From positions 25,961,674 through 26,025,673 of the forward strand of contig OX422184.1 of assembly GCA_949130485.1 (NCBI GenBank): 64,000 bases of DNA. The letters are read 5' to 3'. Positions 3,521 to 57,066 of this stretch are shown piece by piece. Made by a program: the position numbers and the translations under genes. The stretch's first letter is position 1; each line of letters opens with the position of its first letter. The notes under the pieces were generated by a model. That model was given only the letters and a program-made list of their open reading frames with translations. It searched no databases and was not told where the DNA came from. Origin of the DNA: Agelas oroides (taxonomy: Eukaryota > Porifera > Demospongiae > Agelasida > Agelasidae).

Positions 3521-6500
3521 TCACCAGCAACATATTCTGTGGTCACTGCTTTCTGACTTGTACTTCTCTGGCAGCCACAGTGTCCTCAATGTCTGGTTGT
3601 GTTTGAGGCTGTTAATGAGCTGATGAACCCCCTCTTCCCCGACTGAGTCATCACGCAGGCTGAGGACCTCTAGTGATATGTTGTATTGTAACATGTCTGA
3701 CATTGAGGAAGCTCCCTCCACACCAATAGGGTTATAGTCCAGGTCTAGATGTTTCAGAGTTGAGTTCTTGCAGAGTGCAGCCGCCAGTTCCACTGCACCT
3801 TCACTGCTGATGTGGCAGTGTCGCAAGTCCAACTTTGTCAGTGTGCACTTGGAGTGGTCTTTGAGTACTGATGCTAAACTGTCCACATTTGCTATGCTAA
3901 AGTGAGAGTTTGAAATGTTCAGTTTTGTCAGAGAACTGTTGTGACTGAGTCCAGTGATGATGCTGGCTACACTCTCTGAGGACAAGTTGTTCTTTTCAAT
4001 GTGAAGGTATTGAAGTGAGTGACTTGATTTCAGTAGCTCACACAGAGCCTCACAGTCTGGTACCCCAATCCCAGTGTCGTACAGTGACAGTTTTTTTACT
4101 CGACTGCCACAGAGTGCCTTGATCACCTCCACAGCACCACCACTGCCTATTGGGTTGCTACTGAGCCAAAGTTCTTCTAACCTGGACATTGATGGTACTG
4201 CCTTGGCCAGCAGGTCACATGCACTCCCATCCAGTTTGTTGTAACTCAGCTGTAGCTGTCTCATGTCCTGTAGGATGTGTGGGGGGATGTTTACAAATGA
4301 CTGTATGCTTTTAGAGGTGATGTCATTGTGACTGAAGTTAGCATATGAGATGTAGCCCCTGCATCCAGTTCCCCCAGGGGTAGCACATCCCTTGCAAAAC
4401 AGTTCAAAGTTCTCATCATCAAGAACACTGAAGCTCAGTTTCCAGGGGCAGTTGGAATGAGAGACGGCATGGCCCGTCATATAGTAGTCCAGGGGAGTCC
4501 AGGAGTAGTCTGACTGGACAACCACCTCATCTGAACCCAGAGTTCTGGTAGTCATTGAAATGTTCTTCGCTTCAAACAAACAGTGAATATAGTTAAGTTT
4601 AGTATCACCAAACCTAGGAATTCTGCAAGGTATGTTTGCTAACTTTGTACAACCAGCCAAGAATCTCATGGTCATTTTAAAGTGGCCACTGTTAACATGT
4701 TCTTGAAACAGTCTTGCCTGCTCATGTGCAGGAAGTTGTGAGATGTGGATGGCGGCCAAGTATTCCTGAAGGGTCAAGTGAATGAAGTGGTAGGAGGAGG
4801 CTCCACCCTCAGTGTACAGTTGAGGGACCTCCTGCATCAGGCCGAGGGGGGAAAACCCAGTGGGAAGATGGGCTGCAGAGAAAACCAGCTGTTGTCTGTT
4901 CAGTATACCCACATAGGCTATTCTGCACAGCCCCTGGAATTGCTTGTATACATCTGTTGGGAGGTCACTGAAGGTGGTGACCTTCAACTGCTGTTTGTGG
5001 TGCACTGGATGTGTTGAGAGATGGTCTACCAGGATCTTGAGGGTAAAGGCAGTAAGGAGTTCAGTCATAGTTGTGGGAGGGGGTGACTCGGTGTGTTGGC
5101 TCCAGGTGAAAACTTCTGCTGCTGTCTTTGCATTGAAGGTGATATACAATGCTGCTCTGATAGCAGGGGTAGACGAGAGGTAGTCCTTGTACTTGATGGG
5201 GAGGGATGGGTCAGCTTCTACCTCAGTTTTGCTCAGATACTGCTCTGGTGATGGTAACAGTTTAACACGCCATGAGATTTCATCTACACATTTCTCTCTG
5301 ACATACCTCTCAGCTGGTGTGGGCGGGTTAACCCAAAATCCCTTCCTAAGAAAACCAGATCTTGGTATGGTACCACCTAGGTGAGTGTGAGGCTTTGGCA
5401 TTAGTGACAACTCTTCCATTTCATCTAGTGTGGGAGTGTCAAATGAGCTTGGAACTCTGGAGCTGTAGGAGGTAGAATATCCAGAACTGGACCCACTAGA
5501 ATATCCAGAAATGGACCCACTAGAATATCCAGAAATGGACCCACTAGAATATCCAGAACTGGACCCACTAGAATATCCAGAACTGGACCCACTTGTAGCT
5601 GCATACCTAGAACTAGCATAGCTGGAGTAAACAGAACTTGAGCGTCCCCTGGAGCCAAAGGTACTTGTGACTGGGTGGAGTGTTTCAGCTGGGATGGGAG
5701 GGATAACGTTAACTACTGGGACAGAGGATGGCTCTTTCATGGGCCTTGTTCTCGAGGAGGAGTGGCACTCTTGTCCATCAATGGTAATAGTTTCTATATT
5801 TTGTTCTAAGAAGAACTCACTGTTGGTGCTTTCAATGGCTTCCTGTAAGACCTTCACAAATGGTACTGGTATGAGCCAGATGATTGTGATGCAACCTTTT
5901 TTGAGCTCTCTCAGCCGGAGGACAAACTCAGGCAGGAAAAATTTGTGAGTGATGACTCCCTTTAATTTCTCAAGGTCTTCCAGGGTGCAGTTGTCCCAGT
6001 GATGACCCACCTTGGCAACAAACTCTCGGAGCTCTGTCTCGGGAGGAGTTTGTCCCCTCACTGGCCAGCAGCTGATGAAGTCACAGAGCCTGGTAGATTT
6101 TCGGAAGGACTGGAGATCACGCTTATAGGATTTCATCTTGTGCTTGAGGCCTGCACTGCCAAACTTATTAATGATATGTTCCAAAAGGTCAAAGTTCAGG
6201 AAGTCCCAGTAGTTTCCTAGTCTTGCCCAGAGATCAGTGAAGGTCATCTTTTGATGAAAATTCATGAGATGGTTATTAATGAATTCTTGATGTTCATGTT
6301 TTCGAGAAACATCCAGTAATACAAGCCGAGCACGAAGGCGATTCACATCAATGCTTCTGTCTACTAGTAATTCATAAGTGCACTCCGCTAGCTCAAGAAA
6401 ACGATCTTCAAGTTGCCTTACATGTTGCTTGACTGAATGTTTGTCCAGCAAAACTATAGAGGGATATAGAAGAGGGAAGGGAAAATGAAGTCATTGTCAA

Positions 6501-7930
6501 CTTCCATCTTGTTAATCTTTTCTCGGGGCATGTTCTAGCTAAAGTCCCATGCACCCATGAATAATACACTACTTTGGTAAGTAGTGCATTATCCATGGCC
6601 CCGCCGCTATTTGCACATGCCTTCTGCTTGCTGATTTAGCATAACATAACATCAACAGCAAACATAACGGCTAACTTTTGCCAGCATTTATCTCAGGTTA
6701 CAAATAAGCTATGAATCCAAGCTAAATGTCTCCATGTAGCTAAGGCCTCAAGATAAAATATACTAATTCCAGGTTCAAAGTACTATAAGCTGGTGAGTGT
6801 AGTTTCTGTATATCGACAGCACCTGCATTAGCATATATGCTCAAGAGGTACCTGGCTACCAGGACACTCCTGCACTCTATTAAGGAATGTCTATGGTTAG
6901 ATCACTGAACATGCAGACAGCTATCAATGCATTGATACCTATGGCAGTGTAGTAACAGATATGTTACTGATAGCATACCTGTGTGTTCATGTTGTACTGT
7001 GTGGTGAGGGGGTGTGGTCACAGTGACAGGTTGTGTGGTTGCTGGCACCTCTGGACAGTCAAGAGTGAGAGAGGGTGGTAGTACTGAATACTGAGGGGAT
7101 GGGGTTGTGGCAATGGCCAAAGGCTGGGTAGTAGTCCGCTGTGCAGGTACTGATGAGACAGGTTTGGATGAGCAGTACTCGCATTCCAAATCTGCAGCCA
7201 GCTTTGCTTCACCAACTACGTTTAGAGCATCTACAACATTTGTCCATTTATTAGGGGTTGAGGATTTAAGCCATGCTATAAGGGTTTCTCTAAGACAATC
7301 AGAGGGGTCACTGTACTGTTTCTCGGTAGCTTTCAGTGTACCAACACCCACTCCTAGCTGCACACCAATATTGTACCACTTCGCACACACATCGCTTAAC
7401 TCTTTCATTACCACACGCAAGTCAGCAACACTTAGCATAGGTCCTGGGTTTACCTCAATGTCCCCACTCAGCAACAGCAGTAGAGTCAACACTACTCCCA
7501 CCATCTTACTTCCTAGACTAGAGGGGAGATTGAGATGCAGGCTGGGGAAAACATGACAAACACCAGACTGGGATGAGGTGTAGGATGGACGCCCAATGTT
7601 TGACCACACTACTCTGTTCTGGAGGGCCATGGCCGGCAGCACATTGTCGAGGGAAGGCAGCATCAGCACCAGGGGTGTGTGGCTGAAGGTCATGTGACGA
7701 AAGTGAACATTCCACTGGTTGATGGTGGTCATGTGGTCCATGGTTGTTAGCTGCACATGTTCATCCACTAGCCCTAACATTGGTAGCATGAGAACACACA
7801 CAGAAACCAGGAAGCTGAGACCAGGGGTCACATGACCCAGTTGAGAATGGTGGTAGGTGTACTGTCGTGGCCTTTGGTATGCCTTCCTTTTGTTGGTCTG
7901 AACTTTCCGGTGCCCAGTACTGATTGGCAT
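3521..7930 (-). CDS. NLR-like receptor 1: 2A motif, Death domain, LRRs
   Basis: Two coding exons: 7930-6979 and 6453-3521, joined through GTATGC...CTATAG in matching phase, giving about 1,290 residues. Residues 1-163 form a leader with hydrophobic stretches ending in a 2A motif. A Death domain follows (about 165-260), then a Pro/Thr-rich linker. Exon 2 starts with a conserved ~230-residue module (LWARLGNYWDFLNFDLLEH), then a Ser/Gly/Tyr repeat, then a NACHT C-terminal-like region (YHFIHLTLQEYLAA), then six or seven ribonuclease-inhibitor-type LRRs. No GxxxxGK[ST] Walker A is present. By family it is an intracellular danger sensor or signalling adaptor. The ATG immediately follows a polypyrimidine-AG (ccctccctccag), so a 5' UTR intron, an upstream coding exon or trans-splicing is possible. 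The paralogue at 45-55 kb has the same architecture, so the coding call is strong; ligand and pathway are unknown. Confidence 0.85.
5485..5592 (-). repeat. 24 bp in-frame Ser/Gly/Tyr repeat
   Basis: About five copies of a 24 bp unit (actagaatatccagaaatgg plus ccca) lie inside exon 2 of NLR-like gene 1. They encode the octapeptide SSGYSSGS and variants, and the unit length keeps the frame. The paralogue has a different, longer linker at this point. The repeat sits between the conserved N-terminal module and the NACHT-like remnant. Confidence 0.85.
7439..7462 (-). other. 2A ribosome-skipping motif, gene 1
   Basis: The codons read D-I-E-V-N-P-G-P, preceded by S-G and a leucine-rich stretch. This matches the 2A consensus D(V/I)ExNPGP exactly. 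In known 2A elements the nascent chain is released between the last Gly (7442-7444) and the Pro (7439-7441). Here that would free a leader of about 163 residues from a protein beginning with Pro and the Death domain. 2A-like sequences have been described near the N termini of NLR-type proteins in sea urchin and other invertebrates, where they can also act as signal sequences. Activity here is inferred. Confidence 0.8.
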
Positions 7931-15402: not shown

Positions 15403-15958
15403 GTCAGTTGGTTAGTGCTTACTATCAAGTGTTTGTTAGCAGTTGCACCCCTGACCGAATTTTGCTCAAGATGCCCTGTCCCACAAATAGAGTTTGGACA
15501 GAAAAACTGGAATCTGCAATCATTGAAGTGAAATTACGTTTTACTGCTCATGATGGGGATAATTCGACATAATCCCTCCGTATCACTATGCCTGAGCCCT
15601 AAGAAGAAAGTTACTCTGGTGATGCGGGGCTGTCTGGGTCAGTGGGAAAAGCTGCATTTCCTTCTTCTGAAAGCAATTATGCATCCATTCCTATGTAGTG
15701 TAAAATGTCATCCTCGATGACAGACTTCTTCGCTTTGTTCCGCGTTGCTCGCTTCTGGTTTACACTTCCCGCAGTGGAGATAGTCGTAGATCGTCTGGTA
15801 GTCGATTTCCATGAGTCCCAAAGTTCTGAATGTCCTAGAAGTGTTGAGAAATCGTACATCATCCTGACAGCTAGTGATTTTTCTTGACAGAACACTTGCA
15901 CCAAAGTTGTTTGTTTTCACGGCAAAGGATCGAATCCTCTAGTAAAATTGATTCTGCA
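15403..15958. other. No gene assigned
   Basis: A minus-strand frame at 15920-15708 (EIDYQTIYDYLHCGKC) reads like a protein fragment but has no introns, start or family that can be recognised. It may be a transposon remnant. Confidence 0.3.
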
Positions 15959-16765
15959 AGCAGATCCGATCCACCCGGATCGGATTTCCTGTGACACCGG
16001 CACCAACCACCTGGTCTCCTCCCTCTGTGCAGGTACAGACGTCTACCGTCAGTTTGGCCTCCGTCACCCTCTGGTGGTCCAACTGTTGGAACAGCTGCCC
16101 AGCTCTGAGAAGTGCAGTGGATACCACTTTACATACCACCATCCTGAGAAGCTCTCCAGCTGGCAGGCAACTGTAAGCTCATTCATGACCTGCCCTTCTC
16201 ACTGTGTTTTACTCCATTTTCCTACCCTTCCTGGCCCTCTCATCCTTCCCTCCTCTGCTTCATCCCCCTCCTTCCCACCTCCCCTCTCTTCCTCTCATCC
16301 TTCCCTCCTCTGCTTCATTCCATCCTCCTTCTCCCCTCTTCCTGCTCCTTTCTCCCCTTCAGAGAGCAGCATTCAACCCCAGTGGCAGTGCTAGGACTGA
16401 GCCATTTTGTGGTTAAGTCCCAAGCTTCCCTCTCGTAGCTTCTCTCTCGTAGCTTCTCTCTCATAGCTTCTCTCACATTGCTTGTTGCTTCCCAAGTCAA
16501 GTGCCTCTCCTTAAGTTGAAGATTGGCTGAACAGTCTTGGAGGTAAAATACTTTTTATATTTGTGCTTTTCTTCTCCAGTGTTCGCTCTCCACGGGACAT
16601 GTTTAGGTTCCTGACATCCTCCTTCCGCCCTCTCAAACCTGAGGTAGACACTGCGGCACTAGCGGCTGCAATGGCAGTAGCCGAGAATGCTGGAGTCACC
16701 AAGTGAGTTGTGTACACATAAAAGCAGACAATTCCATATTTTGATCGTGTTACCACATTCAAAGC

Positions 16766-17079
16766 ACTGTAGCATGGAACTGCTAAAAGCTGTGTACACA
16801 CTGCATTCACTTCTACACAGCACATGTAAGCCCTAGCCGCTACACTGTAGCATGGAACTGCTAAAAGCTGTGTACACACTGCATTCACTTCTACACAGCA
16901 CATGTAAGCCCTAGCCGCTACACTGTAGCATGGAACTGCTAAAAGCTGTGTACACACTGCATTCACTTCTACACAGCACATGTAAGCCCTAGCCGCTACA
17001 CTGTAGCATGGAACTGCTAAAAGCTGTGTACACACTGCATTCACTTCTACACAGCACATGTAAGCCCTAGCCGCTACAG
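16766..17079. repeat. 78 bp tandem repeat, copy A
   Basis: Four units of cactgtagcatggaactgct... ending ctagccgcta. 78 bp is 26 codons, hence an antisense open frame repeating MCCVEVNAVCTQLLAVPCYS. It lies in the intron before the first SET exon. The main KMT2 gene has only a remnant (caaagcactgtag at about 37605). Confidence 0.9.
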
Positions 17080-17107
17080 CAGTTTAAATTTGGTAACACT
17101 TACATGT

Positions 17108-17394
17108 AGTCTCGTGCCCAGCCCGCGCGCGCCTCCCAGCGAGAAACGGTCTGGTGAACGAAGTTGAATTTCTTGGGCTTATTCCCCAAAGGTGGTAATG
17201 ACCAATGAGATTGCGAGATCGGTAATTATTACTTAGCACTTCCCTTACAATGGTAAAATTTGTTCATTTCTATTCGAATGTCCGTACGTTGCTAGGTTAC
17301 ATTGTCGCAAAAGTGTGCACTAGCCCAAGAAATTCGACTTGGTTCGCCAGACCGTTTCTCCTTGTGAGAGGGTGCGGTCTGGGGACGAGACTAG
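17108..17394. mobile_element. MITE with TAGTCTCGTGCCCAG ends, copy A
   Basis: Starts tagtctcgtgcccag and ends ctggggacgagacta. Inside, gcgagaaacggtctggtgaac pairs with ttcgccagaccgtttctc. The word ggtaacact precedes it within a few bases and follows it exactly, while the main KMT2 intron (about 37650) has a single ggtaacact and no insertion. Confidence 0.75.
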
Positions 17395-17726
17395 GTAACA
17401 CTATGGAACTACGGAACAGAATAATGTTCCAGGTCCTCTCAGAGCTGCCACAGTGATGTATGTACTTGTGTTGAATCTGTGAGTTGAGTGTCCAATGTGT
17501 TGCTCCACCCAGGATGCAGTCAGCATTGGATCTGCCGATGGCTATGCGCTACCGTAACCTTCAAAAGACGTACAAGCAACATGTGCGTGTGTTCCAGTCG
17601 GGCATCCATGGTCTAGGGCTGTACTGCATTAGGGAGATTGAGCCTGGGGAGATGGTGATTGAATATGCTGGCACCGTCATCCGATCTGTGCTAACTGACA
17701 AGCAGGAAAAACTTTATGAGAGCAAG

Positions 17727-17759
<33 letters not shown>

Positions 17760-17828
17760 TGTGTGTGTGTGTGGATGTGTGTGGATGTGTGTGTGTGTGT
17801 GTGTGGATGTGTGTGTGTGTGTGTGTGG

Positions 17829-17866
<38 letters not shown>

Positions 17867-18224
17867 ATACATGTTCATTGAGAATTCTGTCTGTCCATTT
17901 CTCCCAGGGTATTGGATGTTACATGTTCCGCATCGACTCGGATGAAGTGGTCGATGCGACCATGTCAGGCAACGAGGCTAGATTCATCAACCACGCCTGT
18001 GAGGTGAGCGTGTGAGGGGGAGGCCTGTCCGTCTGTTGCCTGTCAGTCAGTCAGTCAAATAGTGGCCTGTTGTCTGTCTGTCAGTTAGTCTGTTTGTCAA
18101 TCGTGTGAGGGGGAGGCCTGGATGGTCAGTCATCAGCCTGTCTGTCTTAATGTTCCTTGGATATCAGTATATTGGTAGACAAACCAGTCTAAGTGCCGAA
18201 ACAATGGCAGACGAAACTGCGGTA

Positions 18225-18325
18225 GACAAAACAGGAGTAGACGAACCAGGAAGATACCAATGAAACACCACTGACTCTGGCAGGTCTGACAAAATATCAT
18301 ACTCTTCATCCTTGTGGCAGTCCCG
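18225..18325 (-). pseudogene. Antisense remnant of KMT2 PHD3 exon, A
   Basis: On the minus strand this reads [14 protein letters not shown], matching the plus-strand PHD3 exon of the main KMT2 gene (30594-30727, [17 protein letters not shown]). It lies just 3' of the SET fragment in the opposite orientation. In copy B the same piece is amplified five-fold. Confidence 0.75.
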
Positions 18326-18415
18326 AGAACATTATTATGTTCCGTATGTTACCACATTTAACATGCTGTAGCGATACTTTGAAACACCCATGCAGTAGGC
18401 TATAAAAAACAGATA

Positions 18416-18487
18416 TACCATGGCTTCCTCGTTCCGCCCTCAGGCTCGGGCAATAAAACCTGTACAGCCCTCGAAGCCATGGTATAA
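18416..18487. repeat. Foldback with CCATGGCTTC ends
   Basis: taccatggcttc at the left and gaagccatggta at the right frame about 70 bp; an identical copy is at 57844-57912. A MASSFRPQARAIKPVQP frame inside is not supported as a gene. Confidence 0.6.
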
Positions 18488-18617
18488 CTACTACATATAC
18501 AACGGGAAAACAGTGCCACTTGTGCCTGTTGTCCCATCTCCATCCTCACCCCTCATACCCTCATACCCTCACACCCTCATACCCTCACACCCTCATCCCC
18601 TCACTGAAGGCATTGCC

Positions 18618-19045
18618 GTAGCCTCGCAAAAGAGCACCCATGGGCGGAGCACCTTACAAGTCTGGGTGGACGCTCTTTTGAGTGTTTTGCAGTTAACCAT
18701 GAAAGTGCGCCCATGTCACATTTACAGCAACTCAATGTCCTTGAAGCAAATAATTGGACAAACAATAATATACAACGGAACAACCAGCGCCTTCGAAGTC
18801 GAGTCCTGATGGCACACAACACTCTGAACGGCACCATGTCACTGTGAGCATAGTGTGCGTACCACATTAGCTACATCCGTCTACGCAAAGATGGTCTTAC
18901 CTCAGATATGTGCTTGAGGCTGTGCCCTTCTAAAACTCCACACAAAGCTCTCTCCAGGTTGGGTGCTCATTCGAGTAAACTTTGACCCTATACAGGAAAT
19001 CGGGCCAAAAGTAGGGCGTGGGTACTCTTTCACGAGACTACGGTA
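18618..19045. mobile_element. MITE with TAGCCTCGCAAAAGAGCACCC ends
   Basis: The left end tagcctcgcaaaagagcacc is matched by a diverged right end gggtactctttcacgagacta. Copy B has the same element at about 58038-58466. Downstream are (CACACCCT)n arrays. Confidence 0.6.
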
Positions 19046-19479
19046 ATAGCTGTCGTGTGATCTTCACATCTTCACACCCTCACACCCTCACACCCTCACA
19101 CCCATACAGTTTGAGATGCGTGCGAAGCAGACTATGGTAATAGCTGTCATGTGATCTTCACATCCTCACATCCTCACACCCTCACACCCTCACACCCTCA
19201 CACATACAGTTTGAGATGCATGCGAAGCAGACTCGACTCCGAGATCTCACACAAACTGAGAGCCGGCACCTGTCCAACACCATCACCCTCCCCACCCCAC
19301 ACAGCCTCACACCAGCACGTATGCTACCTCCCTGGGTTGACACCATTCCGTCTGGCAATCCTGGGCCACACCTCTTTCCCTTTAACAGGTAACCATAGCA
19401 ACACCATGGTACTGTGAATTCTTTACCAACCATCTGTCTCTCCCTCTGCTTTTGCTCTTTGGTGAATCAAACAACTTTA

Positions 19480-20515
19480 TGTCCCTCCCTCTCTCCTCTT
19501 GCTCCCCTCGCCCTCCCTCTCTCCTCTGGCTCCCCTCGCTCCCTCCTCTTGCTCCCCTTGCCCTCCCTCTCTCCTCTGGCTCCCCTCGCTCTCTCCTCTT
19601 GCTCCCCTCGCCCTCCCTCTCTCCTCTTGCTCCCCTCGCCCTCCCTCTCTCCTCTTGCTCCCCTCGCCCTCCCTCTCTCCTCTTGCTCCCCTCACCCTCC
19701 CTCTCCTCTGGCTCCCCTCGCTCTCCCCTCGCCCTCCCTCTCTCCTCTTGCTCCCCTCGCCCTCCCTCTCTCCTCTTGCTCCCCTCGCCCTCCCTCTATC
19801 CTCTTGCTCCCCTCGCCCTCCTCTCTCCTCTTGCTCCCCTCGCCCTCCCTCTCTCCTCTTGCTCCCCTCGCCCTCCCTCTCTCCTCTTGCTCCCCTCGCC
19901 CTCCCTCACTCCTCTTGCTCCCCTCGCCCTTCCTCTCTCCTCTTGCTCCCCTCGCCCTCGCTCTCTCCTCTGGCTCCCCTCGCTCTCTCCTCTTGCTCCC
20001 CTCGCCCTCCCTCTCTCCTCTTGCTCCCCTCGCCCTCCCTCTCTCCTCTTGCTCCCCTCGCACTCGCTCTCTCCTCTTGCTCCCCTTGCCCTCCCTCTCT
20101 CCTCTTGCTCCCCTAGCCCTCGCTCTCTCCTCTTGCTCCCCTCGCTCTCCCTCTCTCCTCTTGCTCCCCTCGCCCTCCCTCTCTCCTCTTGCTCCCCTCG
20201 CCCTTCCTCTCTCCTCTTGCTCCCCTCGCCCTCGCTCTCTCCTCTGGTTCCCCTCGCTCTCTCCTCTTGCTCCCCTCGCCCTCCCTCTCTCCTCTTGCTC
20301 CCCTCGCCCTCCCTCTCTCCTCTTGCTCCCCTCGCCCTCCCTCTCTCCTCTTGCTCCCCTCGCCCTCGCTCTCTCCTCTGGCTCCCCTCGCTCTCTCCTC
20401 TTGCTCCCCTCGCCCTCCCTCTCTCCTCTTGCTCCCCTCGCCCTCCCTCTCTCCTCTTGCTCCCCTCGCCCTCCCTCTCTCCTCTGGCTCCCCTCGCCCT
20501 CCCTTGCTCTTCCTG
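19480..20515. repeat. 28 bp CT-rich minisatellite, copy A
   Basis: About 35 units of ctctcctcttgctcccctcg plus ccctccct, with variants containing tggctcccc. Intronic in the macrodomain gene. Because the array is pure pyrimidine on one strand, all three plus frames and several minus frames stay open (Leu/Ser/Pro or Arg/Gly/Glu repeats); these are not proteins. Confidence 0.95.
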
Positions 20516-20629
20516 TTCCTCAGAACCTTTGTTCAACTACTCTTCCTTCTCCTGTGTTTTTCTCTTCATCCAATACTTTACACTTTGATAACTCTAGTAA
20601 CATCCTGATCTCAATCTGCTTTTTCCTCC

Positions 20630-20985
20630 ATTTCCTCTCCCTCCCCCTCTCCCTCTCCTCCCTCCCCTTCCCTCTCCTCCCCCACCCCCCCACTCTTCCT
20701 TCCCTTTCCACCTTTTCCCTCCCTCTGTTTTTGCTTCCCTCTCTCTCTCTCCCTCATTCCCCTCCCCTCCCCCTGCCCCCCTCTCCTCTCACCCTCCCCC
20801 TCTACTTTTACCCTCCTCTCTCTCTCCCTCACTCCCTCCCCCTGCCCCCCTCTCTCTCTCTCCCTCACTCCCTCCCCCTGCCCCCCTCTCTCTCTCCCTC
20901 ACTCCCTCCCCCTGCCCCCCTCTCTCTCTCCCTCACTACCTCCCCCTGCCCCCCTACCTTCACCCTCCTCTCCCTCTCCCCACAC
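20630..20985. repeat. Polypyrimidine tract before macro exon
   Basis: Continuous C/T-rich sequence with a ~35 bp repeat (ctccccctgcccccctctct). Repeated almost identically in copy B at about 59453-59808. Confidence 0.9.
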
Positions 20986-21189
20986 AAGGCGGTTCAATAA
21001 CATTGTATCTCTGTACACTGGGAGTGCGAGCCAGCTGTTGAGTAATGCCCTCGTCATCCCTCTTGTCTCCATCAAACCAGATGCTGCTGGGAAGGAGAAC
21101 AGTAAGTGGGGGAGAGGGTGAGGAGGGAAGGTAGATGGGAAAGGGGGGGAAGTAAAGAGGAAAGAAAGAGAGACTGACTGGACTGAAAC

Positions 21190-22850
21190 TGAAGACATCT
21201 CCCTCATACACTCACTCACTCACTCACTCTCACTAATGTCCACTACTCCCTCCCTCCACATGCATCCTCATACACTCACTCACTCACTCTCACTAATGAC
21301 CACTGCTCCCTCCTTCCACATGCATCCTCATACACTCACTCACTCACTCTCACTAATGTCCACTACTCCCTCCCTCCACATGCATCCTCATACACTCACT
21401 CACTCTCACTAATGTCCACTACTCACTCCCTCCACATGCATCCTCATACACTCACTCACTCTCACTAATGTCCACTACTCACTCCCTCCACATGCATCCT
21501 CATACACTCACTCACTCTCACTAATGTCCACTACTCCCTCCCTCCACATGCATCCTCATACACTCACTCACTCTCACTAATGTCCACTACTCCCTCCCTC
21601 CACATGCATCCTCATACACTCGCTCACTAACTCTCACTAATGCTCACTACTCCCTCCCTCCACATGCATCCTCATACACTCACTCACTCTCACTAATGTC
21701 CACTACTCCCTCCCTCCACATGCATCCTCATACACTCACTCACTCACTCTCACTAATGTCCACTACTCCCTCCCTCCACATGCATCCTCATGCACTCACT
21801 CACTCACTCTCACTAATGTCCACTACTCCCTCCCTCCACATGCATCCTCATGCACTCACTCACTCACTCTCACTAATGCCCACTACTCCCTCCCTCCACA
21901 TGCATCCTCACACACTCACTCACTCTCACTAATGTCCACTACTCACTCCCTCCACATGCATCCTCATACACTCACTCACTCTCACTAATGTCCACTACTC
22001 CCTCCCTCCACATGCATCCTCATACACTCACTCACTCTCACTAATGTCCACTACTCCCTCCCTCCACATGCATCCTCATACACTCGCTCACTAACTCTCA
22101 CTAATGCTCACTACTCCCTCCCTCCACATGCATCCTCATACACTCACTCACTCTCACTAATGTCCACTACTCCCTCCCTCCACATGCATCCTGATACACT
22201 CACTCACTCACTCTCACTAATGTCCACTACTCCCTCCCTCCACATGCATCCTCATGCACTCACTCACTCACTCTCACTAATGTCCACTACTCCCTCCCTC
22301 CACATGCATCCTCATACACTCACTCACTCACTCTCACTAATGCCCACTACTCCCTCCCTCCACATGCATCCTCACACACTCACTCACTCACTCTCACTAA
22401 TGTCCACTGCTCCCTCCCTCCACATGCATCCTCATACACTCACTCACTCACTCTCACTAATGTCCACTGCTCCCTCCCACCACATGCATCCTCATACACT
22501 CACTCACTCACTCACTCTCACTAATGTCCACTACTCCCTCCCTCCACATGCATCCTCATGCACTCACTCACTCACTCTCACTAATGTCCACTACTCCCTC
22601 CCTCCACATGCATCCTCATACACTCACTCACTCACTCTCACTAATGCCCACTACTCCCTCCCTCCACATGCATCCTCACACACTCACTCACTCACTCTCA
22701 CTAATGTCCACTGCTCCCTCCCTCCACATGCATCCTCATACACTCACTCACTCACTCTCACTAATGTCCACTGCTCCCTCCCACCACATGCATCCTCATA
22801 CACTCACTCACTCACTCACTCTCACTAATGTCCACTACTCCCTCCCTCCC
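21190..22850. repeat. 60 bp minisatellite, copy A
   Basis: About 28 units of 56-60 bp built on cactaatgtccactactccc, tccctccacatgcatcctca and a variable number of cact. Unit variants (tactcc/tgctcc, catac/catgc) form higher-order blocks: the stretch around 21600-21930 recurs around 22050-22400. Intronic between macro exons. Confidence 0.95.
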
Positions 22851-45317: not shown

Positions 45318-48300
45318 TCACCACCATTGTATTCTGTCGTCACTGGTTTCTGACTTGTACTTCACTGGCAGCCACAGTCTCTTCAATGTGTGGTTGTGTT
45401 TGAGGCTGTTAATGAGCTGGTGAACCCCCTCTTCCCCGACTGAGTCATCACGCAGGGTGAGGGCCTCCAGTGATGTGTTGTGTTGTAACATGTCTGACAG
45501 TGAGGAGGCTCCCTCAACACCAATAGGGTTATGATCCAGGTACAGATGTTTCAGAGTTGAGTTCTTGCAGAGTGCAACTGCCAGTTCCACTGCACCTTCA
45601 CTGCTGATGTGGCAGTCTCGTAAGTTCAACCATGTCAGTGTTTTGTTCTCTACTAACATTTTGACTACTGCAGTTGTTCCCTCCACATGCTCTCCAATGG
45701 GGTTATGATCCAGGTCCAGATGTTTCAGAGTTGAGTTCTTGCAGAGTGCAGCTGCCAGTTCCACTGCACCTTCACTGCTGATGTGGCAGTCTTGCAAATC
45801 CAACTCTGTCAGTGTACACTTGGAGTGGTCTCTGAGTACTGATGCTAAACTGTCCACATTTGCCATGCTAAAGTGAGAGTTTGAAACGTCCAGGTATGTC
45901 AGAGAACTGTTGTGACTGAGTCCAGTGATGATGCTGGTTACACTCTCTGAGGACAAGTTGTTCTGTGGAATGTAAAGGTGTTGAAGTGAGTGACTTGATT
46001 TCAGTAGTTCACACAGTGCCCGACAGTCTGGCACCCCAATCCCAGTGTTGTGCAGTAACAGTTCTTTCACTCCACCGCCACAGAGTGCCTTGATCACCTC
46101 CACAGCACCACCACTGCCTATCGGGTTGTCACTAAGCCAAAGCTCCTCTAACCTGGACATTGATGGTACTGTCTTGGCCAGCAGGTCACAAGCACTCCCA
46201 TCCAGTTGGTTGTAACTCAGGTGTAGCTCTCTCATGTCCTGTAGGATGTGTAGGGAGATGTTTACAAATGACTGTATGCTTTTGGAGGTGAGGCCATTGT
46301 GACTGAAGTAACCATATGAGATGTAGCCCCTGCACTCAGTTCCCCCAGGGGCAGCACATCCCTGGCAAAACAGTTCAAACTTCTCATCATCAATGGAAGA
46401 AACACTGAAGTTCAGTCTCCAGGGGCAGTTGGAATGGGAGATGGCATGGCCTGTCACATAGTAGTCCAGGGGAGTCCAGGAGTAGTGTGATCTGACAACC
46501 ATCTTATTTGAACCCAGAGTTCTGGTAGTCATTGAAATGTCTTTTGCTTCAAACAAAAAGTGGAAATAGTTCAGTTTGGTATCCATCGTAATGTCAGGAG
46601 GTATGTTTGCTAACTTTGTACAACCAGTGATGAATCTCATGGTCATTTTGAAGTGGCCACTCTTAACATGTTCTTGAAACAGTCTTGTCTGCTCATGTGC
46701 AGGGAGTTGTGAGATGTGGACGGCAGCTAAGTATTCTTGTAGTGTCAAGTGGATGAAGTAGTAGGAGGAGGCTCTGCCCTCAGTGTGCAGTTGAGGGACC
46801 TCCTGCATCAGGCCGAGGGGAGTAAACCCAGTGGGAAGGTGGGCTGCAGAGAAAACCAGTTGTTGCCTGTTCAGTATACCCTCATAGGCCATTCTGCACA
46901 GCCCCTGGAATTGCTTGTACACATCTGTGGGGAGGTCACTGAAGGTGGTGACCTTCAACTGCTGTTTGTGGTGCACTGGGTGTGTTGAGAGATGGTCTAC
47001 CAGGGTCTTGAGGGTAAAGGCAGTAAAGAGTTCAGTCATTGTGGTGGGAGGGGGTGACTCGGTGTGTTGGCTCCAGGTGAACACTTCTGCTGCCATCTTT
47101 GCTGTGACGGGTGTGTACATGGCTGCCCTGATGACAGGGATAGAAGAGAGGTAGTCCTCGTACTTGGTAAGCAGGGATGGGTCTGCTTCTACCTCAGTGT
47201 TGCTCAGATACTGCTCTGGTGATGGTAACAGTTTAACATGTCGTGAGATTTCATCTACACATTTCTCTCTGACATACATCTCAGCTGGTGTGGGAAGGTC
47301 GACCCAAAATCCCCTCCAGATATCCTTCTCAGGTGATGTGGAAGTTTCAAACCAATATTCTGAACTGAAGCTATGATAACCAAATCTTGGCACGGTACCA
47401 CCTAAGTGAGTATGAGACTTTGGCAACTCTTCCGAGAGAGCCTCCATTTCATCTGGTGTGGGAGTGTCAAACATAACTGTCCCAGAGGTGCGTCGCATTT
47501 TACTCAAGGGCTTAGATGGCACTTGTGGGCGTATGCTAAACTTTTGCTTGCGTTTACTCAGGAAACTGGGTGTTGATTTTTCCCCATGGACATCACCTGG
47601 GTGTGTGCTAAGCTGGACCTCTTCAGAGGGAACCATACTTGTAGACTCACCAGAGAGGATCTCTTCTTCAAGTCTCATCCTGTGTGTTTCTTTTGGGAAT
47701 GGTTGTTCCTCACTTGATTCGAAGGACTGAAGCTTTTCAGGAAGAACGCCCAATGGAGATTTCTCTCTTTGCGCTTCTCCCATGCTATGAGAGGTGAACT
47801 GTTCTTTCGGGTAATCAACATGTTTCCTGGAAGGAGAGGGGTGACAGATTTTTCCATCAATTGTAATTGTTTCAATTTTATGTTCCATGAAGAAATCACT
47901 GCTGGTAGTTTCAACAGCTTCCTGTAAACAATTTATAAATTGTTTTGGTACAAGCCAAGTGATGGCAATACAGCCTTTTTTTATTTCTCCAGGCTGAAGG
48001 GCATACTCAGGCAGGAGAAATTTGCGGATAAAGACTCTCTTTTTTGTCTCAATGTCTTCCAGGGTGCAGTTTTCCCAGTCAAGTTTAATCTTGGTAACAA
48101 ACTCTCGGAATTCAGTCTCGGGGGGCATTTCACCATTCAGTGGCCAGCAGTTTACAAAAACACACAGCCTGGTGGCCTTTCGAAAGGACTGGAGCTCATC
48201 TTTGTAGGATTCCATCTTGTGTTTGAGGTTTTCAATCCTAAACTTGTTGATGACATGCTCCAAAAGGTCAAAGTTCAGGAAGTTCCAATAGAAAGCCAGC

Positions 48301-51300
48301 TTCGTCCAGAGGTCATCAAATGTTGTTTCTTCATCAATTTTCAGGTTGTCCTGAATGAATTTTTGGTGTAAATATTTTCGAGAAACATTAAGTGACAGAA
48401 AAATGGAGCGAAAGGAATGCACATCCTTGTTAACCCTTCCCTCTAAGAGTGCTTTGTAGGCCTGATCAACAAGATCACTGAAACTTTCTTCTAGCTCCTT
48501 CATTCTTTGTTCAACTGATTGCTCGTCAAGTAAAACTGCAAGGAATAGAGGCATAAAGAAACAAAGTCAACAGCCACACTCTATGTAAGTGAACCTAATG
48601 GTTTAAGTACATCCAACGACACACCACAGTCTCTACATGACCTCAGTTCCCACAGTGATCATTTTTTAGGAGAACTGGTGGAGGGTCACCCTCCAACCCA
48701 AATTCAAACTCAGTAACTTCTCCCGTTTCCTCCAGACCGTCAGCCAGTAGGTCCTTTTCTGTTATGTATTTTAATTGTAGAAGTTTACTCCCCAAAATTG
48801 ACGAGCTTGCTGCTCTCTGTTCTACGAACATGCCAGATGTTGTTTGTTTAGTTGAAACCTGGCTCTGTATGGATATCTTGGATACGGAGATATCTATTCC
48901 TAACTATTCTGTTGTCAGGCTTGACAGAAATAGGCATGGTGGTGGAGTTGCTATGTACATTAGAAATAGTGTATCATATAATGTAGTTTTGTATGGCTCC
49001 ACTGGTCTGGAAGTCATTGTTGTATCATTGTCTAAATGTAATTTTAAATTGTGTTTGTGTGTATTCTATAGACCCCCCTCTTCACCACCTGCTATTTTTG
49101 ATAATTTGTGTGACGTTTTACTCTCTGTTCAGCAGTCATGTTTTTCTAATTTTGTACTACTTGGTGACTTTAATGTTAATTTTTTGGATTCTTCTCACAG
49201 TTTTTATCCTTACCTTTGTGACCTCATGACTAGTTTTTCACTTTCTCAAGTTGTTGACACTCCAACTCATTTTTCTCCCAATGGACGATCTACTCTCATT
49301 GACTTGGTTTTTGTATCTAATTTGCATTCTTTTTCCAACTGCTCTGCGATTCCCCAGTTATCCAACTCGGACCACGTTGGATTGATGGTAACTCTGAAAC
49401 ATCAACATGTGGACTCTATCTCTATTCCACGACGCAGAGTCTGGAGGTACAAGCACGCTGATTTTGACAGGGCCAACGACCTGCTATGTGATATGGACCT
49501 GGACAATATTCTGAACCCTTATGACATACAGATGAGCTGGAAGCATTTCAAATCTGCTTTCCTGGATGTGATGGAGCAGTGCATACCAAGGTCTGTGCTC
49601 CCGGCGAGAAATAACCTACCTTGGCTAACCAAAGAGATTATACAGTTGATCAGGAAGAGAAATCATCATTTCAGGAAAGCTAATCGCAGCGGTGACAGAG
49701 ATGATTACTTGAAGTTCAGGCAAATCAGAAATAGAGTTGTGACAGAACTCAGACTTGCAAAAAGGAGATATTTCGCTAACCTACACCCCCACAAAAAACG
49801 GGAATTCTGGAAAATAGTGAAATCTTTGACACCGAAAGAGAACTCCATTCCAACTCTGTCTAGTGGAAACATTGTTGCAAGTACTAATCCAGAAAAGGCT
49901 TCCCTTCTGAATGTCACATTTACGAACTGCCTCAATTACTCACTTCCTGGATTAAGTGTGGTCGATCTCCCTAAAGCTGTTCCCCATGAATGTCCTGACA
50001 ACCTTTTGTGCACTGAAGATGAAGTTTATGAGCTCTTATGCTCACTTGATCCATCCAAAGCTAATGGTCATGACGACATATCCGCTCGAACGCTAAAGGA
50101 GACTGCTTTGAGCATCACCCCTGCTGTGACTCAACTATTTAATATCTCTATACGACTTGGGGAACTACCAGAAGAGTGGAAAACTGCTCGTGTTACACCT
50201 ATTCCCAAGTCACGTGATCACTCCACTCCTGAAAATTATCGCCCGATATCGTTACTCTCAGTGCTGAGCAAACTCCTCGAAATGCACATTCGAAACCTAC
50301 TAATTGACCATCTTGAGAAGTACTACCCTCTCTCTGCTCATCAGTGGGGATTTACTCAAGGCAAGTCCACAACTGGTGCCCTGCTAGATGCAACTGATCA
50401 ATGGCACAGACAGCTTGACTTGGGCCTAGATATCTGCTGTGTGTTCTTTGACTACAGCAAAGCTTTTGATTCAGTTCCCCACAGACCCCTGTTGCAAAAG
50501 CTGAAAAACACCAATGTTCATCCACATATCCTCAGATGGATCACACACTACCTCAGTAACAGGAGCCAGTATGTGTGTGTGAATGGTTCATCTTCAGATG
50601 TATTACCAGTAATTTCTGGAGTTCCACAAGGGTCAGTTCTCGGGCCACTTCTGTTTATTTTCTACATTAATGACATCACAGTGGTTCCATTGTCAGACAA
50701 CACTATGTCACTCTATGCTGATGACTTAATGCTTTATCGCCCTATTTACTCAGCAACTGATTACCATCTGTTACAAATGGACATTGACAACCTCTGTGTA
50801 TGGTCTGACAATAACCTTCTGAAGTTTAATGGTAGAAAATGTAAATATATGATCATCTCCAGAAGAAAGCAACCCTCCCTCCCCGTTACACCTCTCAAGA
50901 TTAAACAAACATGTATGGAGATGGTGCACTCCTACAAGTACCTTGGAGTCTGGCTTACTTCCACCCTGAATTGGTCTATGCAAGTCAGCGAAATATGCAA
51001 AAAAGCACGACAACAAGTGGGTATACTATACCGAAAGTTCTATCCCTCAGCAAATACGTCATCACTCTTGCAACTGTACCTGGCTTACATCCGTCCACAT
51101 TTGGAGTATGCAGCGCCTGTATGGGACCCCCACCAACAGGGACTTATCAACTCTCTGGAGAGAGTGCAGAAGTTTGCACTTAAGGTGTGCACCAAAAACT
51201 GGAGTTCTGGGTATGAGTCTTTGCTTCAGTCATGCAACCTGCCCACCCTTGCCAGCAGAAGACACTATCTGAAACTGTGCCTCCTCTATCAAGTTATCAA

Positions 51301-51641
51301 TGGACATCTGAATTTCCCTACGGCACCCATTGTACCACGAAACCTGTCCAGATCGCTCAGAAACACCAGTACACTAGCCCTTGAAAGGCCAGTAACACGC
51401 ACGAATGCCCATCAGTCATCATTTTTCCCACATACAATCGCCCTATGGAACAGCTTACCTCCACCTGCACAGAACTGCCAGTCTTTGCATTCTTTTAAAC
51501 AGACTGTATTACGTCATACACTTAATACCTCACCTAATACTTAATACTTAATACTTAGTTATTTAGTTTTCTTTCTGGGTGCATTATTATATTAGCAATT
51601 TGCTATTTATGTACCCTTGCACTATTGCAAAATTGTTATAG

Positions 51642-51685
<44 letters not shown>

Positions 51686-54600
51686 ATCAGAACAATTCGG
51701 TTTATACCTGTGTTTTCCTGTGCTGAATTATGAGGGGGTGTGGTCACAGTGGCAAGTTGTGTGGTTGATGGCATCTCTGGATCTGGAGAAGGAGTGGGGT
51801 GGTCAGAGATAAGGGAGGAGGGAGGATGTTGCTCTGCGTATTGAGGGGATGAGGTCATAGCAGTGGCCAAAGGTGATGGATGCTGAGGACCTGTTTCTGA
51901 TGGAAGATCTAGAGGAACAGGTGTGGATGGGGTAGGGCCAGGTGTGAGTTGAGGTGGTTGTGAGCATGCTTGATGGGTGGTAGGAGGTGTGGCAGTGCCA
52001 GCTGCTTTGGTTGAGGACATAATGCATAATGGTGTGGATATTAGGTTGCTGGTTAGTGAAAGATCACTAATGTTTTGACAGTACTTCTGTTCCAAGTCTG
52101 CAGCTAGCTTTGTTTCACTAATAACACTGCTTCATATTGACTGAAATCATTAATTTTACAGTGATGCTACTGATTTGTGAAAGCAGAATAAGTCCATGCA
52201 TGTTAATTACGCAGCTGCTTAACTTGCACACTCAAACCTGGGCGAGAGAGTTTTTGATCGCTTGCAGTATAAAAACGGTTTGCAAGCGATCAAAAACTGG
52301 AGGCAGGAACGGCCTGGGAACGAGGCTATAAAAATGGAGGGGGAAGGCGTGGGCGAAAGAGTCACGTGCGTGATGTCTGGTAGATGTGAGGGTAGACATG
52401 AGGGGGGGCGGTGCCCGACGAAGAATCTCGAGGTCCTTCTTATAATATCTTGTCCAAGAACTTGTAACTGTAACATTCGAAAGCGTCAGTACAGCTTGTT
52501 GTTTGGTAGACTGACCAATGCAAACTTTGTGAGTTACAACAATCAGGCACCGCCCCCTCACATCTACCCTCATGTCTACCTGACGTCACGCATGTGACTC
52601 CTTCTCCCAGGCCTCGTTTTTGAATACTGCAAGCGATCAAAAACTGGAGGCGGGAACAGCCTGGGAACAATGCTAAGTCATCACCGTCTTCTTTGTTCTG
52701 TGAGCTGCTTTTATCCATGCATAGTTCCGTATTTTAGTAAGTGGAACGGGGCGGAATGTTCCACAATCATTCCAGCCTGTTTTGGGTTTTAGTGATGACC
52801 AATTACTAGCTTCCAACCTCCTCTGAAATGGATATACTACATGAGCTCAGATATGGTCTTCTGTCCCTAAACATCACCTTTTGCTACAGGTGGCATACCT
52901 GTGTATTGTGGTGTGGGAGGGGGCGTGGTCAATGGATGTGAGTTAGGCGATGTTTCAAGAGGACTGGAGTCACCGATGAGAGGGAAAGTACCTGGAGAAA
53001 TGGAAAATTCATGTACCTTAAAATTTTGAACTGTGTGTTTAGCAAGGTGCCCTAGTTTCACCTACCTTCCTGTGTGTCCACCATTAATGGTTGTGGGGTG
53101 GGTAGCACCTGCTCAGGTACTGTAGAAGGAGGAGGAACAGGACTCTCAGGCTGGCTGTCAGATGTACCATTGTCCACTACAATTTCCTCCATCACACAGT
53201 GCTTTCTTTCCAGAACACTGGCCAACTGAGTTGCTCCCACACTTCGGCTCCTGAGAGCATCTGTAAGCGTCTTCCAGCTGGTGTTGTCACTGGTAATCAA
53301 CCAAGTCTTGAGCATCTCCAGGAGCTGATCTCTGGGGTCAGTGAACTGTGTTCTGATCCTGTCTAATGTCCCAATCCTCACTTTGAGCTGCAGCCCAAGG
53401 TGGTACCATTGTGCAGACACATCCAGAACCTCCTCCATCACTTGACCAAGATCATCCAAGGTCAATTTGCTTCCTGAAATGTCAAGAAAAGATATGTGTC
53501 TTTAATCTCGTTCAGCTGCGAAAGGAACAGCAATGCCATGCGCAGCTGCTGGGCAAACTTCCGTGATTCTACGTTCCCAGGTTTGGTGATCTGGAACGAG
53601 ACTATGCACGCCAAGAAAACGTGGAGTATAGCCTCGTTCCCAGGCTCCCCCGGAACGTGAATTGTATATGCATGGAGAGCCTGGTATCTTTTCTCACATG
53701 ATCATGACATAATTGAAATAGGACCAGAGTTTTTAGAACCGAAAGGCAATGTTTTGAGAAGAGAAAGGTATCATTTAAGATGTTGTTCAACCAACTATTC
53801 AACACTTGGTGTGTATAATATTCACCCCCTGATATCTAGATACATGTAGTAAGTTGCCCGCTATCTTCGTTCTTTTTCCTGTTCTGAGTCTCAGGTGAAC
53901 CCACATGCAATTAAAGTCTTCTACCTCTGTTCTACCTTTGACGGTGCTCATGTGAGAAAAAATACCAGGCTATCTCCGCTGCACAACTTAATGTTCACAT
54001 TCCGGAGCGGAGGAGCCTGGGAACGAGGCTATGTGGAGTACGAACAGTTTACCACGTTCGTGGCTATCATGCAGCTGTTGGCGAACTACTCACATGTGAA
54101 AACAGAACCGAAGAATGCTGTAGGCACGTACTGTAGCAGTAAAGACAGATGGTTTATCGGACACTGAGCGGAAAGTTGTCACACGTTTGCCATTGAGTCA
54201 CCAAGTCGCCGTCTCGCACGAAATAACTAGCTAGCTGTGCTGTGAAACTGTGTGTACAAAAATGTGCTGACCATATAGTGATTATCTGTTGCAAACTATA
54301 TTTCGTTTTTTTTTTGTTTTCGTGGTTTACGCAAACCATGAAAATATTTTAGACAATGACAATTTCCAGATCTACGGTACATTAGAATAACCACTCACCA
54401 ACAGGCCCTGGGTTTAGTACATTAAAATAACCACTTATACATTAAGGAACTACACTCACCAACAGGTCCCGGGTTCGTCTCTATGTCCCCACTCATCAGT
54501 AGCAGTAGAAGCACCACAACCCCCACCACCCTCCTCCCCAGACCAGTGGGAACAGTGAGAGCTGGGCTGAGGGAAACATGACGGACACTGGAGATATACG

Positions 54601-54925
54601 ACAAACATTTGATATTCCCTCTGTTCTGGAGGACCATGGCTGGTAGCACATTGTTGAGGGATGGTAGTACAAGAGGGGTGTGGCTGCAGTTCATGCGAGA
54701 TAGGGGACCTTGGTTGATGGGGTTCATACGGCAGGTGGTTGTTAGCTGCGCATGTTCGGTTGCTAGCTCCAACATGGGTAGCATGAGAAGACACACGCCC
54801 CAAATAAGCGCGTGGGCGGAGGTCACATGACACGGCTGGCAGTGGCGGTAGTTGTACTGCCGTTGCTTTAGGTATGCCTTCATGGCGTTGGTCTGAAATT
54901 TTCGGTTCTCAGTACCGCTCGGCAT
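45318..54925 (-). CDS. NLR-like receptor 2: 2A motif, Death domain, LRRs
   Basis: Exons: 54925-54460 (leader ending in a 2A motif), 53473-53066 (Death domain, LDVSAQWYHLGLQLKVRIGT), 52991-52899 (Pro/Thr linker), about 52120-51708 (tail of a second Death domain, SETKLAADLEQKYC, plus linker), 48535-45318 (conserved module FYWNFLNFDLLEHVINKF; NACHT C-terminal-like YYFIHLTLQEYLAAVHISQL; LRRs). Junction phases match those of gene 1. The linker differs and there is an extra LRR pair (near 45600-45750). No Walker A is seen. The 5' part of the ~52.1 kb exon has a stop in frame, and skipping it (52899 to 48535) keeps phase, so it may be a relic. The leader is conserved with gene 1 at protein level (GVCLLMLPMLELATEHAQLT versus VCVLMLPMLGLVDEHVQLT). 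Start again lies directly after CTCCAG. Confidence 0.85.
48700..51683 (+). mobile_element. Non-LTR retrotransposon (CR1/Jockey-like)
   Basis: An almost complete LINE with one long ORF (48764-51544, 926 codons) and a poly(A) tail of about 42 A (51642-51683). The 5' end is uncertain, probably truncated: no ORF1 and no clear target duplication was found. It is inserted in the intron of NLR-like gene 2 between the ~51.7 kb and 48.5 kb exons, antisense to that gene; gene 1 lacks it at the same intron, so it arrived after the two genes separated. Confidence 0.9.
48764..51544 (+). CDS. LINE ORF2: AP endonuclease and reverse transcriptase
   Basis: The N-terminal ~230 residues are an apurinic endonuclease-like domain (FNCRSLLPKIDELAALCST, CLVETWL, LLGDFNVNF, SNSDHVG). 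A reverse transcriptase follows with PKSRDHSTPENYRPISLLSV, FDYSKAFDSVPH, GVPQGSVLGPLLFIFYINDI and the catalytic YADDLMLY, then a C-terminal region (AYIRPHLEYAAPVWDPH). No RNase H domain was seen. The frame is uninterrupted, which suggests a young insertion. The endonuclease would nick the target and the RT copy the RNA by target-primed reverse transcription. Clade is inferred from architecture; the poly(A) tail is unlike typical CR1. Confidence 0.92.
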   Translation: MYFNCRSLLPKIDELAALCSTNMPDVVCLVETWLCMDILDTEISIPNYSVVRLDRNRHGGGVAMYIRNSVSYNVVLYGSTGLEVIVVSLSKCNFKLCLCVFYRPPSSPPAIFDNLCDVLLSVQQSCFSNFVLLGDFNVNFLDSSHSFYPYLCDLMTSFSLSQVVDTPTHFSPNGRSTLIDLVFVSNLHSFSNCSAIPQLSNSDHVGLMVTLKHQHVDSISIPRRRVWRYKHADFDRANDLLCDMDLDNILNPYDIQMSWKHFKSAFLDVMEQCIPRSVLPARNNLPWLTKEIIQLIRKRNHHFRKANRSGDRDDYLKFRQIRNRVVTELRLAKRRYFANLHPHKKREFWKIVKSLTPKENSIPTLSSGNIVASTNPEKASLLNVTFTNCLNYSLPGLSVVDLPKAVPHECPDNLLCTEDEVYELLCSLDPSKANGHDDISARTLKETALSITPAVTQLFNISIRLGELPEEWKTARVTPIPKSRDHSTPENYRPISLLSVLSKLLEMHIRNLLIDHLEKYYPLSAHQWGFTQGKSTTGALLDATDQWHRQLDLGLDICCVFFDYSKAFDSVPHRPLLQKLKNTNVHPHILRWITHYLSNRSQYVCVNGSSSDVLPVISGVPQGSVLGPLLFIFYINDITVVPLSDNTMSLYADDLMLYRPIYSATDYHLLQMDIDNLCVWSDNNLLKFNGRKCKYMIISRRKQPSLPVTPLKIKQTCMEMVHSYKYLGVWLTSTLNWSMQVSEICKKARQQVGILYRKFYPSANTSSLLQLYLAYIRPHLEYAAPVWDPHQQGLINSLERVQKFALKVCTKNWSSGYESLLQSCNLPTLASRRHYLKLCLLYQVINGHLNFPTAPIVPRNLSRSLRNTSTLALERPVTRTNAHQSSFFPHTIALWNSLPPPAQNCQSLHSFKQTVLRHTLNTSPNT
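52220..52680. mobile_element. Nested TAGCCTCG-family foldback
   Basis: Two inverted layers. gtttttgatcgcttgcagta / gcaagcgatcaaaaactgga occurs at 52250-52300 and again near 52630. A longer arm at 52330-52420 (agatgtgagggtagacatga, ggcggtgcc) pairs with 52540-52600 (ggcaccgcc, tcacatctaccctcatgtct). Ends read ggcctgggaacgaggcta and gcctgggaacaatgcta. Intron of NLR-like gene 2. Confidence 0.65.
53629..54032. mobile_element. 404 bp MITE, TAGCCTCG family
   Basis: Starts tagcctcgttcccaggctcc and ends ggagcctgggaacgaggcta. Flanks are cgtggagta (53620-53628) and tgtggagta (54033-54041), a 9 bp target duplication with one change. Inserted in the intron between the 2A exon and the Death-domain exon of NLR-like gene 2. 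Confidence 0.88.
54393..54482 (-). repeat. Duplicated NPGP-donor segment
   Basis: actcaccaacaggccctggg (54393-54412) repeats the exon end at 54454-54473 (actcaccaacaggtcccggg) with two differences. On the minus strand both copies encode N-P-G-P-V-G followed by GTGAGTG. The second copy lies in the intron about 60 bp downstream. Confidence 0.8.
54464..54487 (-). other. 2A ribosome-skipping motif, gene 2
   Basis: Codons D-I-E-T-N-P-G-P after a run of hydrophobic residues (VVGVVVLLLLLMSG). It fits the 2A consensus. The exon ends two codons later (GTT G|GTGAGT at 54460), so skipping would occur at the exon boundary and the released chain starts with Pro-Val-Gly and the Death domain of the next exon. 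Confidence 0.8.
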
Positions 54926-55947: not shown

Positions 55948-56262
55948 GCACTGTAGCATGGAACTGCTAAAAGCTGTGTACACACTGCATTCACTTCTGC
56001 ACAGCACATGTAAGCCCTAGCCACTACACTGTAGCATGGAACTGCTAAAAGCTGTGTACACACTGCATTCACTTCTGCACAGCACATGTAAGCCCTAGCC
56101 GCTACACTGTAGCATGGAACTGCTAAAAGCTGTGTACACACTGCATTCACTTCTGCACAGCACATGTAAGCCCTAGCCGCTACACTGTAGCATGGAAATG
56201 CTAAAAGCTGTGTACACACTGCATTCACTTCTACACAGCACATGTAAGCCCTAGCCGCTACA
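55948..56262. repeat. 78 bp tandem repeat, copy B
   Basis: Four units equivalent to those at 16766-17079, with cttctgcacag in place of cttctacacag in three units. Confidence 0.9.
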
Positions 56263-56285
56263 GCAGTTTGGTAACACTTACACTT

Positions 56286-56959: not shown

Positions 56960-57066
<107 letters not shown>

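Follow-up and report, generated by a model that had tools for sequence, protein, structure and literature searches.

Some non-LTR retrotransposons, including L1Tc and APE-type elements, carry 2A sequences near the start of their long frame. For receptor genes the closest described system is that of the NLRs of the sea urchin Strongylocentrotus purpuratus (SpNLR2A; Roulston et al. 2016, PMC4981915). The 14 signals in Table 1 of that study have 26 residues each; the product of skipping stays in the cytosol, and the chains that escape skipping are the targeted ones. NLRs are also listed among the cellular carriers of 2A (PMC11512398), and the use of StopGo in cellular genes is called rare in PMC12846837. 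The same source describes a viral L-rich class (motifs 2 and 6) with an LLLLSG-like sequence, of which the tested motif 6 example was active. The terms "2A-like" and "ribosome" are absent from the main text of a report on the NLRs of the sponge Dysidea avara (PMC12909245). A search of titles and abstract beginnings, taken mostly from the best entries of longer lists and covering literature other than Rao et al. 2025 (10.1016/j.celrep.2025.115822) and Odon et al. 2013, found no long leader-2A exon in NLRs of sponges or other organisms.

Here we describe such an exon in a window of 64,000 nucleotides from the sponge Agelas oroides. It resembles SpNLR2A in that a 2A-like sequence stands near the N-terminus of a receptor gene with a Death domain, and in its predicted link to the exocytic pathway. 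It differs from SpNLR2A in that the leader is mostly 142-179 residues long and has a hydrophobic segment of its own, set apart from the skip site by about 100 residues. The echinoderm arrangement of a 2A followed by a receptor Death domain is found, but not the short 26-residue signal that is itself the 2A. Within the literature covered, the predicted long targeting leader ahead of the 2A is what is new; a 2A before a receptor Death domain was already known from the sea urchin.

The leader and 2A of gene 1 occupy positions 7439..7930 of the minus strand. From the ATG at 7930 an open frame runs through 163 residues to the skip Gly and then to Pro. These 164 codons (7930..7439) read MPISTG...LLLLLSGDIEVNPGP without a stop, and the same frame continues into the Death domain; the reverse-complement translation of the leader, MPISTGHRK...MVGVVLTLLLLLSGDIEVNPGP, is likewise free of stops. 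A plus-strand reading of the segment was rejected, because its frame 1 is full of stops. The 2A core GDIEVNPG|P lies at 7439..7465 (minus), with the predicted skip between the Gly codon at 7444-7442 and the Pro codon at 7441-7439. The original prediction had proposed that this core fits the 2A consensus, and the fit was confirmed. Both cores in the window, GDIEVNPGP in gene 1 and GDIETNPGP in gene 2, follow the StopGo/2A core (D/G/C/N)(V/I)ExNPGP, and the L-rich sequences upstream of them, LLLLLSG and LLLLMSG, fit the recognised motif context when compared by eye with the tested StopGo motifs in PMC12846837. The likeness to viral motifs 2 and 6 extends to the LLLLSG-like hexapeptide, the D at position 12 and the core D(V/I)ExNPGP. 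In contrast to viral StopGo, the sequences here are exon-encoded in a cellular multigene family, and 4 nt separate the skip codon from a splice donor.

The DNA pattern used to search for the 2A, which allows Met too at the V/I position, has two exact matches in the window, at 7440-7465 and 54465-54490 (both minus), and none in 100 dinucleotide shuffles. The assembly (259 Mb in 141 contigs) contains 283 matches to this pattern and none to the pattern read backwards. A chance origin of the motif was therefore rejected.

The leader contains two hydrophobic segments. Segment 1, residues 37-55 (7766..7822, minus), is a predicted signal-anchor with a 19-residue hydropathy of 2.35, an N-flank of +7 and a C-flank of -3. 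Segment 2, MVGVVLTLLLLLS, covers residues 143-155 (7466..7504, minus) and adjoins the 2A core. The AF2 model of the leader has a mean pLDDT of 51.5 and no confident fold; its two low-confidence helices, 36-77 and 139-154, overlap segments 1 and 2 respectively. Searches for a known domain in the leader gave sub-threshold matches only in Pfam and none in the PDB at E up to 1. A cleavable signal peptide was considered as well and, on inspection by eye, rejected for the window genes: a VVAA-EH site looks plausible in C9 copies of the leader but not in genes 1 or 2. The splice-acceptor-like sequence CCTCCAG stands immediately 5' of the gene 1 ATG, and the gene 2 ATG also directly follows an acceptor-like sequence. 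The expectation of a coding leader with hydrophobic segments before a Death domain is thus borne out by the open frame, the two segments and the direct in-frame fusion. With 163 residues, against 26 in the sea-urchin signals, the leader is also, as had been claimed, far longer than a bare signal. Transcripts that never join this exon to the Death domain, which would have spoken against the prediction, are unlikely for gene 1, since both lie in one open frame and no intron is needed.

The Death domain of gene 1 and a low-complexity linker follow in frame at 6979..7438 (minus), up to a donor, CACAG|GTATGC, placed by eye after 6979. Taken alone this domain scored 17.5 and 21.1 bits in two Pfam runs, below the cut-off of 22.6 bits. 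The Death model was matched by all 10 family Death domains tested (10 of the 21 found), and a profile of the family Death domains matches solved FADD death domains with an E of 3.3e-8. On this similarity to the superfamily, the residues after the gene 1 2A are classed as a Death domain. The large receptor exon of gene 1 (3521..6453, minus; start by eye) contains LRRs and a sub-threshold HD2 match. In gene 2 the leader and 2A (54464..54925, minus) end in GDIETNPGP, followed by GTTG and the splice donor GTGAGT. A phase-1 splice to a candidate acceptor would give NPGP-VGSKLTLDDL and open the Death-domain frame at 53058..53473 (minus), which Pfam matches with 33.3 bits. The large receptor frame of gene 2 (45318..48566, minus) has LRRs and sub-threshold matches to NOD2_WH and NLRC4_HD2.

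No NACHT domain was matched by Pfam in the receptor frames of the window (3521-6490 and 45318-48566, minus). The label "NLR" given to these genes before is consequently upheld only in part: the LRRs and the sub-threshold HD2 and WH matches favor it, and the lack of a NACHT match in both genes speaks against it. On these matches the window genes are classed as NLR-like, with no detectable ATPase domain, rather than as bona fide NLRs with NACHT and LRRs. Elsewhere in the leader family, a C9 gene that was read further has a NACHT match with a GPPGCGKT P-loop. The family is similar to the NLRs of D. avara in its large expansion, its Death-NLR class and some transmembrane predictions (PMC12909245); the window genes differ from them in lacking a NACHT match.

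Some further frames were seen around these genes. An antisense LINE frame of 961 residues (endonuclease/reverse-transcriptase; 48659-51544, plus) lies between the Death and receptor frames of gene 2. At 51622-52131 (minus) an open frame, read by eye, starts with residues (ETKLAADLEQKYC) like those at the end of the Death domain in gene 1-type copies, after which comes a linker rich in proline and threonine; it may be a second, truncated Death domain of gene 2. Similar frames, including SET-like ones and low-complexity SPLAPLALPLSSCSPRPPS repeats, recur by eye in the ORF list at 15888-22865, 36731-37963 and 55517-61503, which suggests repeated segmental copies.

Conservation of the leader between two paralogues, as originally claimed, turned out to be an understatement. 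With the gene 1 leader as a query we obtained 70 matches; two of these are parts of one split match, which leaves 69 places in the genome. We read 62 exons of this family A (60 fetched places and the two window copies) and analyzed 61 of them, leaving out the frameshifted L068. Seven short or weak places stand outside the set; outside the 61, L069 and L072, which belong to these seven, and L070 have shortened leaders, and L071 has little beyond the 2A tail. As a rule of thumb, each of the 61 copies was taken to start at the earliest Met among the initial 45 residues of its open stretch. Counted from this Met, the exon product has 142-179 residues in 55 copies and 110-139 in the rest. The leader is free of stops in 60 of 61; L063 carries one stop, and in L058 a stop lies upstream of the Met used. 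D(V/I)ExNPGP is kept in 59 copies, the exceptions being GDLETNPGP (L048) and GDIKTNPGP (L050), and neither alignment A1 (24 rows) nor A2 (83 rows) shows any variation in the core residues G, D, E, N, P, G and P. The layout consists of a basic N-terminus, hydrophobic segment 1, a conserved LPSLNNVLPAM motif, hydrophobic segment 2 and the 2A in the last ~25 residues. The hydropathy exceeds 1.6 for segment 1 in 58/61 and for segment 2 in 53/61 copies. The N-flank of segment 1 is more positive than its C-flank in 60/61, with medians of +5 (basic) and -1 (slightly acidic), and from the end of the segment to the skip Gly there are 101 residues (median of 61 copies).

The leader exon is coding and under purifying selection, with the 2A conserved. 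Across the whole exon the pooled Nei-Gojobori dN/dS comes to 0.45, against 0.33 in the 2A region; when the final 30 residues are set aside it is 0.48, so that the dN/dS check proposed for aligned leaders confirms the leader as truly coding. The pool consists of 1574 of 1770 pairs with dS 0.1-1, L063 dropped; the pairs are non-independent and gene conversion is outside the model. By part, dN/dS is 0.36 in segment 1, 0.50 in the loop after it and 0.38 in the LPSLNNVLPAM core. The values of 0.60 for the N-terminus and 0.59 for the variable stretch indicate fairly fast evolution, and hence a function of the peptide of its own, as suggested before, is no more than possible. Gaps inside the exon were multiples of three in 106 of 106 cases (60 random pairs with 5-20% DNA difference), compared with 14 of the 29 gaps downstream of the exon in the 13 of these pairs whose flank there aligned with >60% identity. 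The share of changes that fall on third positions amounts to 0.39 for the leader and 0.52 for the 2A region (309 pairs); the first value means that the leader is constrained only moderately. Within the exon, constraint is strongest in the 2A region. Purifying selection and codon-length gaps led us to reject the leader as untranslated sequence.

These data bear on the idea that only the last ~25 residues matter, as a bare 2A signal of the sea-urchin type started from an internal Met, the rest being 5' UTR or decoration. Gene 1 has indeed a Met 22 residues before the end of the exon product (MVGVVLTLLLLL...), as do 5/61 copies; 19/61 have one at 23, and in 37/61 at least one Met falls 15-30 residues from the end. 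But at least 37 of the 61, gene 2 included, lack a Met at 22 or 23, and the upstream part is open in 60/61 copies, with the selection and codon-length indels just described. In 13 of the 16 C9 copies, moreover, an in-frame stop lies between the acceptor, chosen by pyrimidine score, and the first Met, at the leader start, which means that the leader is the N-terminus there. We consider a start at the internal Met very unlikely.

The exon boundary is equally regular. In 57/61 copies the skip Pro codon is followed, at a distance of 4 nt, by a GTRAG donor; among the others gene 1, L009 and L010 run straight into the Death domain, and L062 has GC for GT. We examined 22 genes, three of them genomic fusions. 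An in-frame phase-1 splice to NPGP-(V/L)-(G/C)-x-Death was found in 18 of the 19 intron-type genes, a number to be read with the test in mind, an uncontrolled one that accepted any in-frame AG over some 120 nt. For L024 no Death domain was present in the 1.5 kb searched. A same-strand Death domain lies downstream, no more than 15 kb away and ahead of the next leader, at 63 of the 69 places (none at six in the matches used), and a window-type receptor exon within 40 kb at 36 of 69; both are lower bounds without a random-placement control, drawn from 96/150 Death-domain and 47/150 receptor matches among the best candidates scored.

Pairwise identities of leaders and Death domains are uncorrelated (Spearman 0.10, p 0.15; 21 genes, 210 non-independent pairs), as is expected if the exon is shuffled. 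In 16 pairs the leaders are ≥80% alike with Death domains ≤55% alike, and in 10 pairs leaders ≤65% alike go with Death domains ≥80% alike. The leader is a discrete 5' coding exon, apparently shuffled among receptor genes.

A second leader family, B (MGID...WRARIG...), has 86 matches in the genome, part of them fragments, with clusters at G000 C1 1.5-7.3 Mb and C3 0.3-0.8 Mb. Death domains were seen close to several of its copies, and its leader has no match in the PDB at E up to 1. A profile comparison with hhalign aligns families A and B only over the last 23 columns, which are the 2A tail; common ancestry of the two leader families was for this reason rejected. The genome has 283 2A motifs; among the 100 that were listed, family B accounts for 52 by overlap, family A for 22 and LINE-type PHD frames for 19, and seven overlap none of these, with two intervals widened by hand. 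The 74 motifs in leader families contrast with the rarity ascribed to StopGo in cellular genes (PMC12846837).

The 19 overlaps raise the question of whether the exon is a functionless retrotransposon remnant caught by receptor genes. As in non-LTR retrotransposons, the 2A stands near the start of a frame, and in this genome LINE-type PHD frames also follow 2A sequences, some with a hydrophobic leader. Both window genes are unlike such elements, however, in that Death and LRR frames rather than an endonuclease/RT frame follow the 2A. Purifying selection on the leader and the fixed splice frame before Death domains make a functionless remnant highly improbable. It is possible that the 2A tail itself originated in a LINE. 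Upstream of one LINE-like PHD frame (L087, G000 C2:6188806-6189831) stand a 2A and an open leader, ~110 residues long and hydrophobic at its start; more such frames exist in the genome.

We favor a reading, with a probability of about 0.6, in which a targeting segment docks the ribosome at the ER, a small membrane peptide is set free at the 2A and a receptor chain beginning with Pro is then made separately, in a family of Death-domain NLR-like genes. Skipping, topology, localization and peptide function are here predicted from sequence. Translation would start at the leader Met, and segment 1 would emerge from the ribosome some 100 residues ahead of the skip site, early enough for SRP to bring the ribosome to the ER. 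The exit tunnel holds 30-40 residues and the ribosome-translocon complex 65-70 (PMC2978324); with a median of 101 residues, segment 1 should be exposed well before the skip. Its flank charges are as in signal-anchors with a cytosolic N-terminus. The peptide bond would then be skipped at NPG|P and the leader released as a predicted ER-membrane peptide. The ribosome would continue with a separate receptor chain, starting Pro-(Val-Gly)-Death domain, which should stay cytosolic; non-skipped chains would remain membrane-tethered. The order of events would be reversed relative to the sea-urchin signals, with targeting before the skip.

The fusion might dominate over the skipped products, because inhibition of skipping is described for certain ER-translocated sequences placed directly before a 2A (PMC2978324). 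Taken further, the 2A could be weak or inactive here, and the product a single membrane-anchored receptor with the leader as an ordinary signal-anchor; transmembrane predictions reported for sponge NLRs (PMC12909245) would agree with this. A plain anchor does not need a 2A, though, and yet constraint on the exon peaks in the 2A region and NPGP is kept in two leader families alignable over the 2A tail alone. We regard such a single-chain product as unlikely.

If targeting followed by skipping is correct, an immune-type gene family would use ribosome skipping as a routine design, with modular swapping of N-terminal peptides between receptors. Tentatively, about a hundred receptor genes may carry interchangeable leaders from at least two unrelated families, and the peptide, made 1:1 with an ER-made receptor, might serve as its partner or localization device; we hold this architecture as a whole to be rather less than an even bet. 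The leader-2A exon would offer a simple test of the interplay between skipping and ER targeting when targeting comes first.

Relatives of both leaders occur in databases. Family A is matched by 737 proteins at E 1e-3. Among the 120 relatives listed the core is kept in 119, with one NPGH; eight are identical over the aligned part to copies of this genome, and 111 are <90% identical to any of the 61. Relatives are apparently present in other public assemblies, and presumably in other species. For family B, 867 database matches were found among 7995 candidates scored.
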